Assembly (NCBI GenBank): GCA_022448265.1
Contig: JAKVCC010000008.1
Span: 42,587 to 106,586 of the forward strand
Direction of reading: 5' to 3'
DNA: 64,000 bases
DNA from: Pirellulales bacterium
GTDB taxonomy: Bacteria; Planctomycetota; Planctomycetia; Pirellulales; Lacipirellulaceae
The stretch's first letter is position 1. Every line of letters starts with the position of its first letter. This document shows, piece by piece, positions 11,776 to 19,832 of this stretch. Below the pieces are notes generated by a model. The model did not search any database. It was not told the origin of the DNA and was given only the letters and a program-made list of their open reading frames with translations. Both the position numbers and the translations under genes were made by a program.

Positions 11776-12924
11776 TTACAGAACTCCAAAGGCTCCTTCT
11801 AAATCCTGCTGCAAATCTTCGTAGGCCTCCAAACCGACCGATAAGCGAATCAGGCCATCAGCGATACCGTGTTTTTTTCGATCGGCCGCATCGTAGCTGG
11901 CGTGCGACATCGAGGCCGGCTGCTCGATCAGCGATTCAACCGCGCCCAGGCTGACCGCTAGTTGAAACAGGTGCGTCGCTTCTACGAATCGTTTCGCCTC
12001 CGCAAATTCGCCGCGAAGTTCAAAGGAGAGCATGGCTCCAAACGGGCCCCCCTCCATTTGACGCCTAGCAATATCATGCCCCGGGTGGTCTGGCAGTCCC
12101 GGGTAGTGGACCCGCGCCACGCGGTCATGCGACGACAGCCACGTTGCCAACTCCAGCGCAGTACGACTCTGTTCGCAAACCCGCACCGCAAGCGTTTTCA
12201 AACCGCGCGAACACAAGAAAGCCTCCCAGGGCCCCATGATCCCGCCGGTGGCATTTTGCACAAAATAAAGTTCGTCCCACAGCGACGGGTCGCGAACAAC
12301 CAACGCCCCGCCGACCAGATCACTGTGACCGCCGATGTACTTGGTCGCCGAATGCATGACCAAATCGGCGCCAAGTTCCAAAGGGCGCGTAAGCACTGGG
12401 GTCGCAAACGTGCTGTCCACGCCCAACAGCGCGTCGTGGCGATGGGCCACCTCGGCACAAGCACCGATATCGGTGATGGTCAGACGCGGATTGCCGGGGC
12501 TTTCAATCCATAACAACCGGGTCGCCGGCGTGATGGCCGCCTCAACGCTGGCCAGATCCGTGGTATCGACCAGCGTCACCTGGATGCCAGCACGGCTGGA
12601 TATTTTGTGGAGAAGCCGGTAAGTGCCGCCATAGATGTCACTGCCCGCCAGAACATGGTCGCCCGCTTTGAGAAGGCCCATCGCACAGTGGATAGCCGCC
12701 ATGCCACTGGCAAAAGCCAGCGCACCACAACCCGCCTCCAGTGAGGCGAGAGTGCTCTCCAGGGCAGCGCGCGTGGGGTTGCCGCTGCGCGAGTAATCAA
12801 ACTCACCCCACTCGCCCGCGCCAGGCTGTACGTAAGTCGCCGCGAGATGCAGCGGCCGGACGACAGCGCCGGTTGCTGCGCACTTTTCGTTGCCAACGTG
12901 GATCGCCCGGGTTTTAAAGTGCAT
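11776..12924 (-). CDS. Trans-sulfuration PLP enzyme (cystathionine gamma-synthase/lyase family), copy 1
   Basis: This 382-residue protein belongs to the Cys/Met-metabolism PLP family that makes or breaks cystathionine and related thioethers. Landmarks are the N-terminal TRAIHVGNE, the tyrosine loop FDYSRSGNPTR and the PLP-stacking SDIYGGTYRL. Next come WIESPGNPRL, the Schiff-base Lys195 in HSATKYIGGHSD, and SLGAVESLIEQPASMSH. The set fits cystathionine gamma-synthase, gamma-lyase or beta-lyase; sequence alone does not decide. A second family member starts upstream (12960-14219) with only a 35-base gap on the same strand, so the two are probably co-transcribed and may split synthesis and cleavage steps. 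Confidence 0.9.
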   Translation of the reverse strand: MHFKTRAIHVGNEKCAATGAVVRPLHLAATYVQPGAGEWGEFDYSRSGNPTRAALESTLASLEAGCGALAFASGMAAIHCAMGLLKAGDHVLAGSDIYGGTYRLLHKISSRAGIQVTLVDTTDLASVEAAITPATRLLWIESPGNPRLTITDIGACAEVAHRHDALLGVDSTFATPVLTRPLELGADLVMHSATKYIGGHSDLVGGALVVRDPSLWDELYFVQNATGGIMGPWEAFLCSRGLKTLAVRVCEQSRTALELATWLSSHDRVARVHYPGLPDHPGHDIARRQMEGGPFGAMLSFELRGEFAEAKRFVEATHLFQLAVSLGAVESLIEQPASMSHASYDAADRKKHGIADGLIRLSVGLEAYEDLQQDLEGAFGVL

Positions 12925-12959: not shown

Positions 12960-14219
12960 CTAAGGCATTTCCAGAGCTTGCCCAAGATCGGCAATCAAAT
13001 CTTCGGCATTCTCGATGCCGCAAGCAAGTCGAATCATATTGTCGGGGATGCCAAACTGACTCCGCTCTTCAGGCGTACACTGATAGTAACTCATGACCAG
13101 GGGCTGCTCGATCAGCGACTCCACACCGCCCAAACTAGGAGCGATGCGCGGGATCTTCACCGCATCGACAATATCGGCAGTGACGCGCCAGTCGGCATCC
13201 TGTATCAAAAATGTGACAAGCCCCCCAAACCCGCGCATCCAGCGTTTCGCGATTTTCGCGTAGGGATGCGAGGCCAACCCTGGGTAAAACACCCGCTCAA
13301 CCCGTGGATGGCTCTCCAGGTATTCTGCGACGCGTTGTCCGTTTTCGTTGTGCCGCTGCATCCGCAATTCAAATGTTTTCAAACCGCGCGCGAGCAAATA
13401 CACGTTTTGTGGACTATTGACCGCGCCCATAATGCCCCGCAGGTTGCGGACCGACTCCATTTTCTCTTTGGTTCCGATCACAGCTCCCGCCAGCAGGTCG
13501 TTGTGCCCACCCAGGTATTTGGTAGCCGAATGCAGTACGTAATCGATCCCGGAATCAATGGGTCGCAGATTATACGGAGTGGCAAGCGTGGCGTCGATCA
13601 AGGTATCGATACCATGACGCCGGCCAATATCGGAAAAACGTTCCAGATCGATACAACTCATATGCGGATTCGTCGGCGATTCGCTTATGAGCATCTTCGT
13701 ATTGGGCGTGATGGCCCTTTCCATGGCTTCATAATCGCAGGTCCGGACCTGACGCGTCACGACTCCGAAACGTGACAAATGCTTGGTGCAAAATTCACGG
13801 CTCCGGTGGTAGCACTCGTCGAAAAAAACGACTTCATCCCCCGCGCGGAGTTTTGACATCAGCAGGCCCACCATCGCAGCCATGCCGCTGGAATAGAGCA
13901 CCCCGTCTTCGCCCCCCTCTAGCTCAGCCAGCTTGCGCTCGACAACCCTTTCGCCCGGATGCCCATACCGGCCATACTCTTCGCGAGGTTGTTCCTGCTG
14001 AATGAAGTCGATAATCGCCTGCGTATCAGCAAACGTGTAGGTCGAAGCGCAAAATATGGGATCCGTAACCGAATCGCCCGGCTTCTGACGCGCCTCACCG
14101 GCGTGGACCGACTTGGTAGAAATATCGTTCAAAAACTCGGCAGGCAAAGCCTTCACGTTCGGCTGGACCGCTTCGGACGGATCGCGGGGACGCTGTTTCG
14201 CCATTTCAAGGTGATTCAT
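12960..14219 (-). CDS. Trans-sulfuration PLP enzyme (cystathionine gamma-synthase/lyase family), copy 2
   Basis: This 419-residue protein is the second Cys/Met PLP enzyme of the pair. It has about 35 extra N-terminal residues before the conserved TKSVHAGEAR. Family features are EYGRYGHPGERVVE, YSSGMAAM, DECYHRSREF, ISESPTNPHM, Lys234 in HSATKYLGGHND and SLGGVESLIEQPLVMSY. It is clearly diverged from its neighbour (YHRSREF replaces the usual YGGT loop), which argues for a different thioether substrate. The start at 14219 (MNHLEMAKQ) or 14204 (MAKQ) is not settled. Its leader carries a strong intrinsic terminator 58 bases before the start, which suggests attenuation. Confidence 0.9.
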   Translation of the reverse strand: MNHLEMAKQRPRDPSEAVQPNVKALPAEFLNDISTKSVHAGEARQKPGDSVTDPIFCASTYTFADTQAIIDFIQQEQPREEYGRYGHPGERVVERKLAELEGGEDGVLYSSGMAAMVGLLMSKLRAGDEVVFFDECYHRSREFCTKHLSRFGVVTRQVRTCDYEAMERAITPNTKMLISESPTNPHMSCIDLERFSDIGRRHGIDTLIDATLATPYNLRPIDSGIDYVLHSATKYLGGHNDLLAGAVIGTKEKMESVRNLRGIMGAVNSPQNVYLLARGLKTFELRMQRHNENGQRVAEYLESHPRVERVFYPGLASHPYAKIAKRWMRGFGGLVTFLIQDADWRVTADIVDAVKIPRIAPSLGGVESLIEQPLVMSYYQCTPEERSQFGIPDNMIRLACGIENAEDLIADLGQALEMP

Positions 14220-14714
14220 AGGGGAAGCAGGGGCTGGGGACTGGGGCGGATTCGAAGCTCGTACCTGGTAATTCACAAAAAAAACCGCACTTACGCTCGG
14301 TAAATGCGGCTTGTGAAAGCTGCTTCGAATTCCAATGGCCAACCAATATCCTGTCGCCACCGAACTCCTGTTGCCATGTTTGCTACCAGACGCCTTCAGG
14401 TGCTTTGCGTTGGCAACGTTTTGGCTCTTTAGCAGTTTCGGCTGCAAGCGGCCACAAATCCCGAGTTGCTGTAAGTTTACGCAGCAATCCACCAGGATGC
14501 AAGCACGTTTCGCGAAAGGCGAAGTTTTCCTGGCAATTTAGCTGTCCACCGCCAGCGCCAGCAGTGCATCAGTTCATTTTTCTCCAGCGGCGCACCAATG
14601 AGTAACTAGATGCACTTCCCTGAACCTGTTGTCGATCTTGACCCCATCCAGGTCACTTGAGAATATCCGCGCCCCGTACTTTTTCTCACCCTCCCCCACT
14701 TTGCTGGTGTTTCC
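14220..14714 (-). promoter_or_regulatory. Leader and divergent promoter region; candidate attenuator or riboswitch for the PLP-enzyme operon
   Basis: This 495-base spacer separates the minus-strand PLP operon from a plus-strand lipoprotein gene. It holds the intrinsic terminator at 14277-14309. Two further inverted repeats nest around it: ATTCGAAGC at 14250-14258 with GCTTCGAAT at 14322-14330, and TTCACAA at 14272-14278 with TTGTGAA at 14311-14317. Farther upstream in the leader a smaller hairpin is seen (TTGCTG with CAGCAA, about 14464-14485). Its loop and flank contain CTTAC, which could pair with GTAAG of the terminator. I compared the leader by eye with SAM-I, SAM-II, SAH, cobalamin and T-box signatures and found no match. 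Confidence 0.5.
14277..14309 (-). terminator. Rho-independent terminator inside the PLP-operon leader
   Basis: On the minus strand CCGCATTTAC pairs with GTAAGTGCGG around a CGAGC loop and is followed at once by eight T residues. One of the ten pairs is a G-U wobble, which pairs only in minus-strand RNA; on the plus strand it would be a mismatch, and no T-run follows there. The next minus-strand gene upstream is more than 3 kb away, behind plus-strand genes. The obvious transcript for this element to stop is therefore the PLP operon itself. Confidence 0.75.
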
Positions 14715-15356
14715 ATGACTGGTCCTTCCAAACGATTCGTCATGCGCCATCTAGCTTGTGTCGTGCTACTTGCCTGTACGCTCTTCGCCAGTTGCCGCTC
14801 CCCATATTATGCCGACCGGGGGATCGGCCTAGGCGCACTCACAGGTGCGGGCGCAGGCGCCATCATTGGCAATGCGACCGGCGGAAACGCTGGTAGCGGC
14901 GCGTTGATTGGCGCGGGCCTCGGCGCACTGACCGGTGCGGCCGTTGGCACGGAAATGGACGCGCTTGCTGCTCAGAATCGGGCAGCGATCGCCGCTCAAA
15001 TGGGCCGCCAGGTGCAAGCCGGCGCGGCAAATATTCAAGAAGTGATCGCAATGACCCAGGCAGGAGTAGATCCTCGGCTCATCCAGAACTACGTGAGAAC
15101 GTCGGGCGTGGTCGCTCCTTTGGCGGCAAGCGATGTAATCTATCTGCACGAACAAGGCGTTTCGACCGACGTTATCCAGGTGATGCAGAGCCCACCGATG
15201 GTGCAGGCGCCGCTCGTGGCAAATCTTCCCCCCGTAATTGTCGAAGAGTACTACTACGGCCGACCCGCTTGCTACACCCCCCATTTCGGATATCACCACG
15301 GCTACCACCGGGGCCGCCGTGGCCGTACCAGCTTCGGCTTCTCGATTTCGAAATGA
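14715..15356 (+). CDS. Glycine-zipper lipoprotein
   Basis: This 213-residue protein has a signal peptide ending in the lipobox LFASC, so it should be lipidated and sent to the envelope. Residues about 37-85 form two glycine-zipper hairpins (GIGLGALTGAGAGAIIG and GSGALIGAGLGALTGAAVG), like the outer-membrane SlyB/OsmB-type zipper domain. The rest is a helical segment followed by a His/Arg/Gly-rich tail (YHHGYHRGRRGR). Proteins of this kind sit in or under the outer membrane; the specific role is unknown. The ATG at 14715 or the one eleven codons on (MRHLACV) may be the start. Confidence 0.75.
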   Translation: MTGPSKRFVMRHLACVVLLACTLFASCRSPYYADRGIGLGALTGAGAGAIIGNATGGNAGSGALIGAGLGALTGAAVGTEMDALAAQNRAAIAAQMGRQVQAGAANIQEVIAMTQAGVDPRLIQNYVRTSGVVAPLAASDVIYLHEQGVSTDVIQVMQSPPMVQAPLVANLPPVIVEEYYYGRPACYTPHFGYHHGYHRGRRGRTSFGFSISK

Positions 15357-15496
15357 GACAGGGACAGCTGCGCGGCGCGGCGACGGCACGTCCATCTTCT
15401 CTTTGGTGACCAAGCGTTTGCGCTTCGCACCAGCCTCGCGCGGCCTAGTGCTGCCGCGGCTATCGATGACAGGGGAAAAATCGTTATACTTACCTA

Positions 15497-17497
15497 ATGA
15501 CCAAGCTCCGTCTTGCCGCCGCGGGTGTGAATCAAACACCCCTGGCATGGGAAACCAACTGCAACAACCTGCTGGCTGCTATCTCGGCCGCGCGCGAGGC
15601 GGAGGCGGGGGTACTATGCTTGCCGGAACTCTCGATCACTGGCTATGGCTGCGAAGACACCTTCTTTGCGACCGGCGTACAAGAAACCGCGCTAGAAATT
15701 CTCGCCGAAATCGTCCCCCAGACGCAGGACCTAGTCACAACCCTGGGCCTGCCGCTGGCCATTGACGGCCAACTCTACAATGTGATGGCCCTTTGTTGCG
15801 ACGGGAAGCTGCTGGGCCTGGTTGGCAAACAGCACCTAGCTGCCGACGGCATTCACTACGAACCTCGCTGGTTTGCGCCTTGGCCAGCGGGCCACGTTCG
15901 GGAAGTTTCAATCGGAGCGTCCGCGTATCCGGTCGGCGATTTGCTGTTCGATTGCGGCGGTGTGAAAATCGGCATGGAAATCTGCCGGGATGCCTGGGTC
16001 GACGACCGTTCGGGGGGGCGGCTGGCCGCTCGCGGTGCGGATATTATTCTCAACCCCAGTGCCAGCCACTTCGCCTTTAACAAACAAGAAATCCGCCGCG
16101 AGTTCGTCCTTCGGGGTTCGCGCGAGTTTCACGTCAGCTACGCCTATGCCAATCTATTGGGCAACGAATCGGGGCGCGCGATCTTTGACGGGGGAACACT
16201 CATTGCCAGTCGGGGAGAGATGCTGGCCGCCGGGGCGCGCCTCTCGTTCGCCGATTGGGTAATGGCAACTGCCGACATCGACGTAGCTGCCTCGCGCCGC
16301 GATCGAGAGGGGGCATCCCGGCCGCGCTGCGACCTGCAGAGCCTGGGCGGCGCGACGATCGAGGCCCAGTGCACGTTTCCGCCCCCGACGGCGCCGCGCA
16401 CGGCCACCCGCCCGGCCGCCTGGGATGCTTCACCGGCCTCCAAAGCCGAAGAATTTTCCCGGGCCGTACCGCTCGCGCTATTCGATTATCTTCGCAAGAG
16501 TCGCGCCGGCGGCCTGGTGGTCTCGCTGAGCGGTGGAGCCGATTCCTCAGCCATAGTCACGATGGTCTGGCTCCTGGTAGAGCTGGCCATCGCCGACATT
16601 GGCCGGGAAGTTTTTTTGCGGAAGCTCGCCCATATCCAGGGTCTTGCCGAGCAGCCCAATAACGGGGCGCTGGTTGGCCGGCTACTGACGTGCGTCTATC
16701 AACGAACCCGCAACAGCAGCCAAGTAACACACAGCGCTGCGGTCCAGGTCACCAAAGCCGTGGGAGCAGAGTTCGTAGAGTGGAATATCGACAACCTAGT
16801 GGATGGCTATGTCGATATGGTCTCGCAAGCCACCGACCGCCAACTTACGTGGAAGCAGGACGACCTGACGCTGCAAAACATTCAAGCCCGCGTACGGGGA
16901 CCGGGCGCATGGCTGTTGGCTAATATGCGCGGGGCCCTGCTGCTGGCCACCAGCAATCGTAGTGAGGCAGCGGTCGGCTACGCCACCATGGACGGCGACA
17001 CGTGCGGCGGGCTCGCGCCAATCACCGGCATCGACAAAGCGTATTTGCTCGAATGGCTCCAATGGATGGAGCGGGCGGGGCCAGCTGGCGCCGGTCCACT
17101 CGATGTGTTGGCGGTAGTCAATTGCCAAGAGCCGACGGCCGAACTTCGCCCGCCAGGAGAACATCAGACCGATGAAGGCGACCTGATGCCGTACACCGTT
17201 TTAGATACGATCGAACGGGCAGCCATTCGTGATAAACAGATGCCCGTTGAAGTACTGCAAACGCTGGAAGCCCGCTTTGCAGATTACTCACAAACACAGT
17301 TGGGACACTGGACAGAGCGATTCTTTCGGCTCTGGTGCCGCAACCAGTGGAAGCGAGAACGCTACGCCCCTTCGTTTCATCTTGACGATGAGAACCTCGA
17401 CCCCAAGACATGGTGCCGTTTCCCCATCTTGTCGGGCGGATTTGACCGTGAGCTGGCCGACCTGCGTGCGAGAACAGGGGCGGACAAGCAGGAATAA
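15497..17497 (+). CDS. nadE: Glutamine-dependent NAD+ synthetase
   Basis: This 666-residue enzyme converts nicotinic acid adenine dinucleotide to NAD+ using ammonia released from glutamine. The N-terminal nitrilase-type glutaminase has the triad Glu44 (LPELS), Lys111 (GLVGKQH) and Cys163 (GMEICRDAW). The C-terminal synthetase has the ATP pyrophosphatase loop SGGADS at 345-350, then ATSNRSEAAVGY and GDTCGGLAPI. This is the two-domain form typical of many bacteria, at normal length. The start MTKLRLAAAGVNQTP fits the nitrilase fold. A TATACT lies only seven bases before the ATG, so the transcript could be leaderless. Confidence 0.95.
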   Translation: MTKLRLAAAGVNQTPLAWETNCNNLLAAISAAREAEAGVLCLPELSITGYGCEDTFFATGVQETALEILAEIVPQTQDLVTTLGLPLAIDGQLYNVMALCCDGKLLGLVGKQHLAADGIHYEPRWFAPWPAGHVREVSIGASAYPVGDLLFDCGGVKIGMEICRDAWVDDRSGGRLAARGADIILNPSASHFAFNKQEIRREFVLRGSREFHVSYAYANLLGNESGRAIFDGGTLIASRGEMLAAGARLSFADWVMATADIDVAASRRDREGASRPRCDLQSLGGATIEAQCTFPPPTAPRTATRPAAWDASPASKAEEFSRAVPLALFDYLRKSRAGGLVVSLSGGADSSAIVTMVWLLVELAIADIGREVFLRKLAHIQGLAEQPNNGALVGRLLTCVYQRTRNSSQVTHSAAVQVTKAVGAEFVEWNIDNLVDGYVDMVSQATDRQLTWKQDDLTLQNIQARVRGPGAWLLANMRGALLLATSNRSEAAVGYATMDGDTCGGLAPITGIDKAYLLEWLQWMERAGPAGAGPLDVLAVVNCQEPTAELRPPGEHQTDEGDLMPYTVLDTIERAAIRDKQMPVEVLQTLEARFADYSQTQLGHWTERFFRLWCRNQWKRERYAPSFHLDDENLDPKTWCRFPILSGGFDRELADLRARTGADKQE

Positions 17498-17630: not shown

Positions 17631-19832
17631 TCAGCCTCCAATCACCATCCGCCAGCACCGGTGGATGCGCTTGTTACGGAAGTCCTCCGGCACAGTCTGT
17701 TTACTAATTTCTCGCAAGCTCACTCCAGCCAGTGCCCCTTCGTCAAGTTTGAATCTCCTGGAATTGGTAGAAAAAAATACAATGCCGCCGGGCGTCATGC
17801 AATGGATAACCTGATGTAATAAGGCCACATGATCGCGCTGAATATCCCAATCGTGTTCCAACTGGCGGCTATTGGAAAAGGTGGGCGGATCGACGACCGC
17901 CAAATCGAATTTTTCTTCACCCACAAGCGAGCTGAGAAACTGGCCAGCATCGCTCCGCACGTAACGGTGTCGCGGTGAGCCAAATCCGTTGAGCTTGAGA
18001 TTTTCGGTGGCCCATTCCTGGTAAGTCGCCGACAGATCGACCGAGGTCGACCGAGCCGCCCCGCCGGCGGCTGCATAAACCGTAAATGCCCCAGTGTAGG
18101 CAAAAACATTGAGAAAATTCTTGTCCGCAGCCGCGTCGCGGACCATGGCCCGCGTCCGGCGGTGATCCAAAAACAGGCCCGTGTCGACATAGTCGGATAA
18201 ATTGACTTGAAAACGCAAACCACCCTCATGCACGACGCGCAAGGCCTGCAGCTGATCAATCCGACCGTACTGCGCATTCGCCCGTTGCCGAAGCCGCTGC
18301 TTGACAAAAACCAGTTCGTGCGGCACCTCCAGAGTTTTGGCAGCAGTAGCCACCATCGCGTCGAGCCAATCTGCGTGCTCCGCCGGGGTGCGGGCATGGG
18401 GCCGCTCATACTCGGCGATGTGCAGCGCCCCTTCGTAACAATCCACGACCAGCGGAATCTCGGGTATGTCACGATCGTAAACCCGATAGCAACTGATTCC
18501 TCGTTTCGAGGGCCAACGGCGCAGGTGCCGGGCAAGCTTGCGCAATCGATTGGCAAATTCTTCGGATTGGCGAGCGGCCTCTTCGCGGAGCCCCCCAAAC
18601 GCCGGACGCTGTTGCTCTTGAGGCGCCCGCGGCGAATCCGAAGTCTCGGCCAATGCCTGCGCGCGGGGCGGTCGTGGACCATGGAACTGAAAATAGGTGC
18701 AGGCAATTTGCCCATTGAACAGCTTACGGCGACGGTCGGCCTGTTGTCCCACCAGTTGCTCGAGGTCTGTCTGGGCCGAGAGGATATAGTGCGACCAGGT
18801 CTTCAAACGCCTTAGCACTTCGGGCAGAGTGCGATAGAGGGCTTCCACCTCCGACTGATCACCCAAGCGTAATCCGTAAGGCGGATTCATAATGGTGCAG
18901 CCCCATTTGCGCTGCGACTTGAGATCAGCAAATGCCCGCTGCTGAAAATGCACATCCTTTTCCACCCCCGCGCGCTCAGCGTGATAGCGGGCCAATTTGA
19001 GCGATTCGGCTTCGATGTCGGTACCCATTGGCCGCTCAGCCAGGGTCGGCAATCGCAAATCGTCTGCCTCTTCGCGCGCCAGCTGCCACGGTTTGTCTGG
19101 CACAGCCGGCCACTGCTCGGCGGCGAACGCGCGGCCGCACCCAGGGGCTTGGCGCCTCCCCAACATGGCCGCCTCAATCACGATGGTGCCCGTCCCGCAA
19201 AAAGGATCGATTAGCGGGCGCTCTGGATTCCAATAGCTGAGTTGCACAAGAGCCGCCGCCAAAGTTTCCCGAATCTGTGCAGGGGCCGAGAGGGTGCGAT
19301 AACCGCGCCGATGTAGACCATCGCCCGAAGTGTCCAGCGACAGCGTGACTTCATCGTCTAAAAGGGCAACCTCCACCGGCACAGGCGTACCTGTCTCGGG
19401 CAGGGCGACGACCTGATGCTTGCCCAGCAAACGTTGGACGATTGCCTTCTTGATGGTCCGCTGGCAGGCCGGCACGCTGCTGAGCTGCGATTTTCGCGAC
19501 CGGCCCCGCACTGGAATCGCTGCGTCGGGGGCTATCCACTCTTCCCAAGGCACAGCGCAGGCTGTTTCGAAGAGCAGATCGAAATCAGTCGCAGAAAATT
19601 TTGACATCTGCAGGAGTACGCGGTCGGCCGAGCGCAACCAGAGATTGGTCCGACAAATGGCCGCGACGTCACCTTCAAACTCAATACGCCCCGGACGCGC
19701 CACGCGCCCCTCGTAGCCGAGGTGGTGGAGTTCGCGCACGACGATCGCTTCGAGGCCAAACGCGGCAGTGGCGACAAGCTGGAACAAGGGTGGAAAGCTG
19801 AAAAGGGAGGACAACGGGGAAGGCAGCGTCAT
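17631..19832 (-). CDS. rlmL: Bifunctional 23S rRNA methyltransferase RlmKL
   Basis: This 733-residue protein matches the fused enzyme that makes m2G2445 (RlmL half) and m7G2069 (RlmK half) of 23S rRNA (E. coli numbering). The N-terminal half has a THUMP domain (about 60-165), then DPFCGTGTIVIEAA (209-222) for SAM binding and the catalytic NPPYG (316-320). The C-terminal half has a second Rossmann methyltransferase with NVFAYTGAFTVYAA and VVDPPTFSNS. The length is slightly above the E. coli protein. It converges with nadE across a 133-base gap, and no operon partner is visible. Confidence 0.93.
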   Translation of the reverse strand: MTLPSPLSSLFSFPPLFQLVATAAFGLEAIVVRELHHLGYEGRVARPGRIEFEGDVAAICRTNLWLRSADRVLLQMSKFSATDFDLLFETACAVPWEEWIAPDAAIPVRGRSRKSQLSSVPACQRTIKKAIVQRLLGKHQVVALPETGTPVPVEVALLDDEVTLSLDTSGDGLHRRGYRTLSAPAQIRETLAAALVQLSYWNPERPLIDPFCGTGTIVIEAAMLGRRQAPGCGRAFAAEQWPAVPDKPWQLAREEADDLRLPTLAERPMGTDIEAESLKLARYHAERAGVEKDVHFQQRAFADLKSQRKWGCTIMNPPYGLRLGDQSEVEALYRTLPEVLRRLKTWSHYILSAQTDLEQLVGQQADRRRKLFNGQIACTYFQFHGPRPPRAQALAETSDSPRAPQEQQRPAFGGLREEAARQSEEFANRLRKLARHLRRWPSKRGISCYRVYDRDIPEIPLVVDCYEGALHIAEYERPHARTPAEHADWLDAMVATAAKTLEVPHELVFVKQRLRQRANAQYGRIDQLQALRVVHEGGLRFQVNLSDYVDTGLFLDHRRTRAMVRDAAADKNFLNVFAYTGAFTVYAAAGGAARSTSVDLSATYQEWATENLKLNGFGSPRHRYVRSDAGQFLSSLVGEEKFDLAVVDPPTFSNSRQLEHDWDIQRDHVALLHQVIHCMTPGGIVFFSTNSRRFKLDEGALAGVSLREISKQTVPEDFRNKRIHRCWRMVIGG

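Follow-up and report, generated by a model that had tools for sequence, protein, structure and literature searches.

A probable SAM-II-like riboswitch with a predicted antiterminator ahead of a Cys/Met-metabolism gene in Pirellulales

What controls the minus-strand gene that starts at position 14219 of this planctomycete DNA, behind a hairpin with the look of an intrinsic terminator? The window, i.e. the whole stretch of 64,000 nucleotides that was analysed, comes from a host genome of 3.64 Mb. The regulated gene (12960-14219, minus strand) encodes a Cys/Met-metabolism PLP enzyme of 419 aa that is cystathionine gamma-synthase-like (Pfam PF01053, 418 bits), the closest sequence of solved structure being the cystathionine gamma-synthase 1i41 (E 2.4e-103). 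None of the best 25 of 54 NCBIfam models was matched at its cut-off. The next gene on this strand, starting 35 nt further downstream, encodes a second Cys/Met PLP enzyme (11776-12924; PF01053, 472 bits) and probably belongs to the operon of the first; a weaker second match adjoins the first in many relatives. A sequence-only reading of the locus had stated that no minus-strand gene lies within more than 3 kb upstream. This holds: the likely genes of 14715-17497 are all on the plus strand, the minus-strand ORFs within this interval overlap them, and the next long minus-strand ORF ends at 17631.

The same reading had placed an intrinsic terminator just before the start codon, and folding supports it well beyond chance. 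The terminator (14277-14312, minus strand) consists of a hairpin at 14312-14282 with 13 pairs, including an AAG/UUU foot and an inner stem of 10 bp with one G-U pair, and of eight T at 14284-14277. The segment 14316-14276 folds at -17.1 kcal/mol (z = -4.7), and one of 200 shuffles was equally good. This hairpin tops the list of terminator-like structures between 12000 and 19000, a list that as a whole shows no excess (8 vs 7.0 expected by chance). Two inverted repeats nested around the hairpin had also been reported and are present (9 nt, 14250-14258/14322-14330; 7 nt, 14272-14278/14311-14317); on inspection by eye they are not common to the loci of relatives.

About 110 bases upstream of the terminator lies a near-invariant element of 43 nt, CTCGGGATTTGTGGCCGCTTGCAGCCGAAACTGCTAAAGAGCC (14465-14423, minus strand), which is probably a SAM-II-like aptamer. 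On this strand, P1 would pair 14464-14461 with 14441-14438, the third strand GAUUUG occupies 14460-14455, and the P2 pseudoknot comprises P2a (14453-14451/14425-14423, GGC/GCC) and P2b (14445-14442/14435-14432, GCAG/CUGC). The layout is SAM-II-like, with a short P1 (2-4 bp), a GAUUU third strand, the P2 pseudoknot and GCUAAA. Among the first 30 homologous loci, 28 carry the element with few changes and the two misses are contig ends (126 and 2 nt of upstream sequence). A covariance model built from the element, R1, matched 205 of 396 Pirellulales genomes with one copy each (174 of 252 among the good-quality genomes), and a new search of 30 genomes with laxer filters gave a second, partial match in one. 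Over the phylum, R1 matched 14 of 392 genomes, namely 11 Pirellulales, including the source genome, and three of a distant family, f86. In 30 genomes without a match (16 from the order, 14 from the class), a repeat search with laxer filters scored at most 22.8 bits (E 0.14). In named genomes the aptamer pattern fits at least 119 stretches; among the 80 matches listed, all are planctomycete and include the genera Rhodopirellula, Rubripirellula, Lacipirellula and Bythopirellula. The pattern had no match in viral contigs.

Further counts were made on 171 loci, one per genome, a non-random sample of 167 of the 205 R1-matched genomes (the best listed places plus 30 weaker ones) and four f86 genomes. 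The same PLP-enzyme gene, as best tblastn hit, lies downstream in 165 of them, the others being two contig ends and the four f86 loci; this agrees with the methionine/SAM-pathway context expected of a SAM-II member. Conversely, three loci (L380-L382, in the Pirellulales genomes G040, G041 and G058, which R1 did not match) have the gene with no aptamer upstream (best 4.0 bits with filters off), so some families lost the switch or never had it.

P1 and P2 pairs were counted in the 168 of 171 loci that could be parsed with a pattern demanding UUU, UUGC and GCUAAA; of the remaining three, two lie at contig edges and one has no leading G. The third pair of P1 is formed in 117 of the 168 loci vs 69.3 expected on reshuffling (maximum 89 in 2000), as C-G, U-A or A-U, and is unpaired in 51. 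The fourth pair shows no excess over chance (70 of 168 vs 64 expected). In alignment A3, pairing reaches 82.9% for P1, 96.6% for P2a and 99.5% for P2b, and the covariation score of this alignment (49 distinct rows) was reached by none of 500 shuffles and by no slid control. Most P2 pairs are invariant and carry no information either way on P2 covariation; at one P2a pair, L077 and L093 have U-A in place of G-C, a change on both sides, and six loci have an A-C mismatch. Both the P1 covariation and the P2 pseudoknot expected of a SAM-II member were found. Four loci (L071, L076, L078 and L090) have insertions of tens of nucleotides that separate P1 from P2 and seem self-complementary by eye, like an additional linker stem.

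The sequence-only reading could match no known riboswitch class by eye and had suggested an Rfam search and an alignment of related leaders; together these point to a SAM-II-like class and reveal the covariation described above. At Rfam's own cut-offs, the whole window has no match. The sole match up to E 5 in 14200-14720 is to SAM_alpha (RF00521), which at 14.1 bits (E 1.4; cut-off 36) is weak if taken alone. Likewise, 16 loci of relatives gave no SAM match at E 1, and a search with RF00521 gave none among the 12 genomes of Pirellulales listed. When 20 aptamers of about 78 nt were compared with 4227 Rfam families at E 10, the six sense-strand matches were all to SAM-II models; they fall in five of the 20, and the other 15 have no SAM-II match. 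Four ssnA matches among these 20 are all antisense to the aptamer and were rejected, and microRNA and other odd Rfam matches in relatives' loci and f86 loci were treated as unrelated. For instance, L026:2746-2856 is a long near-perfect inverted repeat whose hairpin shape produces matches to plant microRNA models.

The f86 elements bridge the two models, with 27.0-34.0 bits for R1 and 28.9-36.3 bits for SAM_alpha, one of the four attaining the cut-off of 36 (36.3 bits). With the SAM-II long loop model (RF01726; cut-off 44), scores are 25.7-27.3 bits for the f86 elements and 15.8 bits for one Pirellulales aptamer. The link to SAM-II thus rests on the f86 elements that match both models, on the Rfam matches of the short aptamers and on the layout. 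Two further RF00521 matches, L230 and L240, were not counted as members because the aptamer pattern did not fit them; L230 lacks most of loop 1. The f86 loci themselves (L072-L074 and L231), from a different class of Planctomycetota, carry near-canonical SAM-II elements with an immediate terminator. The ORFs that follow are of about 170 aa and encode something other than the PLP enzyme; for the two at L072, Pfam gave no match.

The Pirellulales element shares with SAM-II (RF00521), as described for the metA element of Agrobacterium (PMC1273637), a single P1 stem with a P2 pseudoknot, the GAUUU third strand, the CUUGCA and GCUAAA motifs, downstream methionine genes, a promoter just ahead of P1 and the frequent presence of an intrinsic terminator. 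It differs in its P2a of 3 bp, with perhaps a fourth pair in the window, in a P1 often of 2-4 bp, in its short linker and in its score (14.1 bits vs 36). The long-loop variant (RF01726; PMC2864571) belongs to the same class, but it has no match in the window up to E 5. The binding core and the short P2a also recall SAM-V (metY/bhmT, Pelagibacter), which is reported to superimpose on SAM-II (PMC6061858). Unlike SAM-V (RF01826), however, the window has no P3 helix between P1 and P2, where the linker is 4 nt, and the SAM-V model gave no match in the window up to E 5. The nucleotides that contact SAM in SAM-V (U8-U10, U20, U47, A48 and A50 in SAM-V numbering, with the correspondence made by hand) are present in the 168 parsed loci, where the pattern required them. 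Judged by its sequence, the aptamer fits best as a divergent member of a riboswitch class already known (SAM-II-like), and its ligand would be SAM.

A sigma70-type promoter is predicted at 14474-14502 on the minus strand (-35 TTGCAT at 14502-14497, a spacer of 17 nt and -10 TAAACT at 14479-14474). In the 165 loci kept for the promoter scan, 102 score at least 8 of 12 vs 3.7% of shuffled upstream stretches, and 138 score at least 7 vs 13.0% of shuffles, the window itself scoring 7. Of the 138 loci that reach 7 or more, 103 have a -10 box ending 9-12 nt ahead of the aptamer's GGG. Similarly, the promoter of the metA element was put just before P1 (PMC1273637).

The sequence-only reading had proposed a terminator/antiterminator leader for a Met/Cys enzyme, noting that such enzymes are often under SAM or related riboswitches. 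Conservation and covariation support a leader of this general layout, probably under SAM control, but not the specific pairing of CTTAC with GTAAG: the CTTAC (14475-14471) overlaps the predicted -10 box and, being at or before the likely transcript start, is unlikely to act. The data imply another antiterminator, in which UGUGGC (14456-14451) pairs with GCCGCA (14310-14305) and CUCGG (14465-14461) with CCGAG (14300-14296), all on the minus strand. Its 5' strands lie inside the aptamer (14451-14465) and its 3' strands in the arm and loop of the terminator. Computed pairings that share one strand are thus mutually exclusive, and one of them is an intrinsic terminator, as in an attenuator.

A simple terminator finder set at -8 kcal/mol reported a hairpin in 115 of 171 real leaders, and also in 43 of 171 shuffled ones. 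Sequence evolution supports this antiterminator. The 5' arm of the terminator keeps GCCGC, which is complementary to the P2a strand GYGGC, while the remaining hairpin drifts. Among 103 leader hairpins, 77 have GCCGC within their first 10 nt, vs 10 of 208 other hairpins from the same loci; these 208 are pattern hits, probably many of them intragenic, and a weak control for true terminators, and at least two of the ten are the reverse strand of leader hairpins. GCCGC is present in none of 35 hairpins of the window scan, which include the leader hairpin in trimmed form. These counts, as well as those of pairing between an aptamer and its own partner, are restricted to hairpins of -12 kcal/mol or stronger outside f86; the latter are further limited to hairpins of up to 46 nt, which keeps 92 loci. 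The duplex of an aptamer with its own terminator arm (-17.2 kcal/mol) is more stable than with permuted arms (-16.1 kcal/mol), beating all 5000 permutations, and shuffled arms give -10.6 kcal/mol. The covariation between terminator and P1 strand persists in a test that starts from 83 of the 92 loci and takes a single locus for each distinct aptamer tetramer (47): 7 of 5000 permutations reached the observed pairing, and the fraction was at most 0.011 in 20 further draws. Permutation tests of this kind remove relatedness only in part. This covariation is exemplified by CUCGG/CCGAG and CUUGG/CCAAG (L012, L043 and L132).

When the transcripts of the 92 loci are cut before the 3' arm of the terminator, the P2a strand pairs with the arm with a probability of at least 0.5 in 77 of them, and the P1 strand does so in 53. 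For the window, the antiterminator has a probability of 0.98-0.99 at transcript ends 14296-14290; this falls to 0.58 at 14287, and at 14284, where the terminator stem is complete, the antiterminator no longer forms. Truncated transcripts were used because, at equilibrium, the full leader of the window prefers the terminator to the antiterminator; hence the decision, and with it the ON state, must be kinetic.

Taken together, this leader is very probably an OFF riboswitch of SAM-II type that senses SAM and acts by terminating transcription. We infer its start site and its switching in the cell as follows. RNA polymerase would start a few bases ahead of the aptamer. With SAM bound, the pseudoknot would lock the CUCGG (P1) and GUGGC (P2a) strands, so that the GCCGCA arm, which is made later, could fold into the terminator and would thereby turn the operon off. 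Without SAM, both aptamer strands would pair with the 5' arm and loop of the terminator once these are made, delaying the terminator and allowing read-through into the two trans-sulfuration-type genes. Since bound SAM would keep these two strands within P1 and P2a, it should favour termination.

Several other explanations were weighed against this SAM-responsive terminator. The fold could be that of SAM-II and recognise another ligand, e.g. S-adenosylhomocysteine or a pathway intermediate, as might be imagined from the score far below the SAM-II cut-off and the shortened P2a. We consider this unlikely, given that all positions reported to contact SAM (PMC6061858) are kept, as required by the pattern that fitted 168 of 171 loci, and that the gene resembles an enzyme for a methionine precursor, a usual target of SAM-II. 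It is slightly less likely still that the conserved element is an operator or a protein-binding RNA leader and that the terminator is an attenuator under the control of a protein or of translation: the great invariance of the element would be possible for a protein site, but P1 and P2a covary, the sense-strand Rfam matches are SAM-II models only, and insertions of tens of nucleotides between P1 and P2 are more easily reconciled with an RNA fold than with a linear site.

The hairpin might also end a small RNA running from about 14470 to 14277, the operon downstream not being switched at all. Such an RNA would fit the predicted promoter and the strong terminator, which together would give a transcript of about 190 nt. 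However, the same gene follows 165 of 171 copies, 19 of 165 loci have no strong terminator and a start codon that abuts the aptamer, and the terminator arm remains complementary to the aptamer; we regard this explanation as very unlikely.

The loci with abutting start codons raise the question of whether the riboswitch always acts on transcription. A strong compact terminator is present in 92 of the 165 loci; in 19 others it is missing and an in-frame ATG abuts the aptamer. No locus has both, and by these criteria 54 have neither. All 19 belong to one family, f15 (Pirellulaceae), and two of them (L179 and L219) have no in-frame start other than the abutting ATG ahead of the conserved part of the protein. 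These 19 loci resemble the start-region control described for SAM-V (PMC6061858). We lean somewhat towards the view that the pair of aptamer and gene kept its sensor and changed its output within the order, many families using an antiterminator made from the P1 and P2a strands of the aptamer and part of f15 hiding the start codon directly (...CUAAAGAGCC-AUG). Judged from the loci with an assigned output, this looks like a change between transcriptional and translational control on the same gene. The 54 loci to which these criteria assign no output include L062 and L064-L070, where both aptamer and gene are present.

Named hosts of SAM-II in passages of PMC2258182 and PMC2704228 are alpha-, beta- and gamma-proteobacteria and Bacteroidetes, and by term counts the main texts of PMC2258182 and PMC3766115 do not mention planctomycetes. 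In titles, abstract openings and some passages of the literature on SAM-II or riboswitches with planctomycetes, no description of the element was found. A candidate motif from Proteobacteria and Planctomycetes, 'Rhodopirellula-1', which has no Rfam number (PMC2864571), could be the same thing. In 2007, the expression mechanisms of SAM-II were described as not experimentally established (PMC2258182). The present locus would extend SAM-II-type control to an order of Planctomycetota that the Rfam model misses, and would place a methionine-pathway operon under that control. Moreover, it would provide an explicit antiterminator for a switch of SAM-II type, backed by sequence evolution. The terminator and start-codon versions before the same gene offer a directly testable contrast and, if the two-output reading is true, the order would be a natural experiment in the exchange of riboswitch outputs. 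Finally, a SAM-II-looking element is also present in another planctomycete family (L235:1510-1581, minus strand, genome G548), where it scores 25.0 bits with RF00521 and 16.9 bits with R1.
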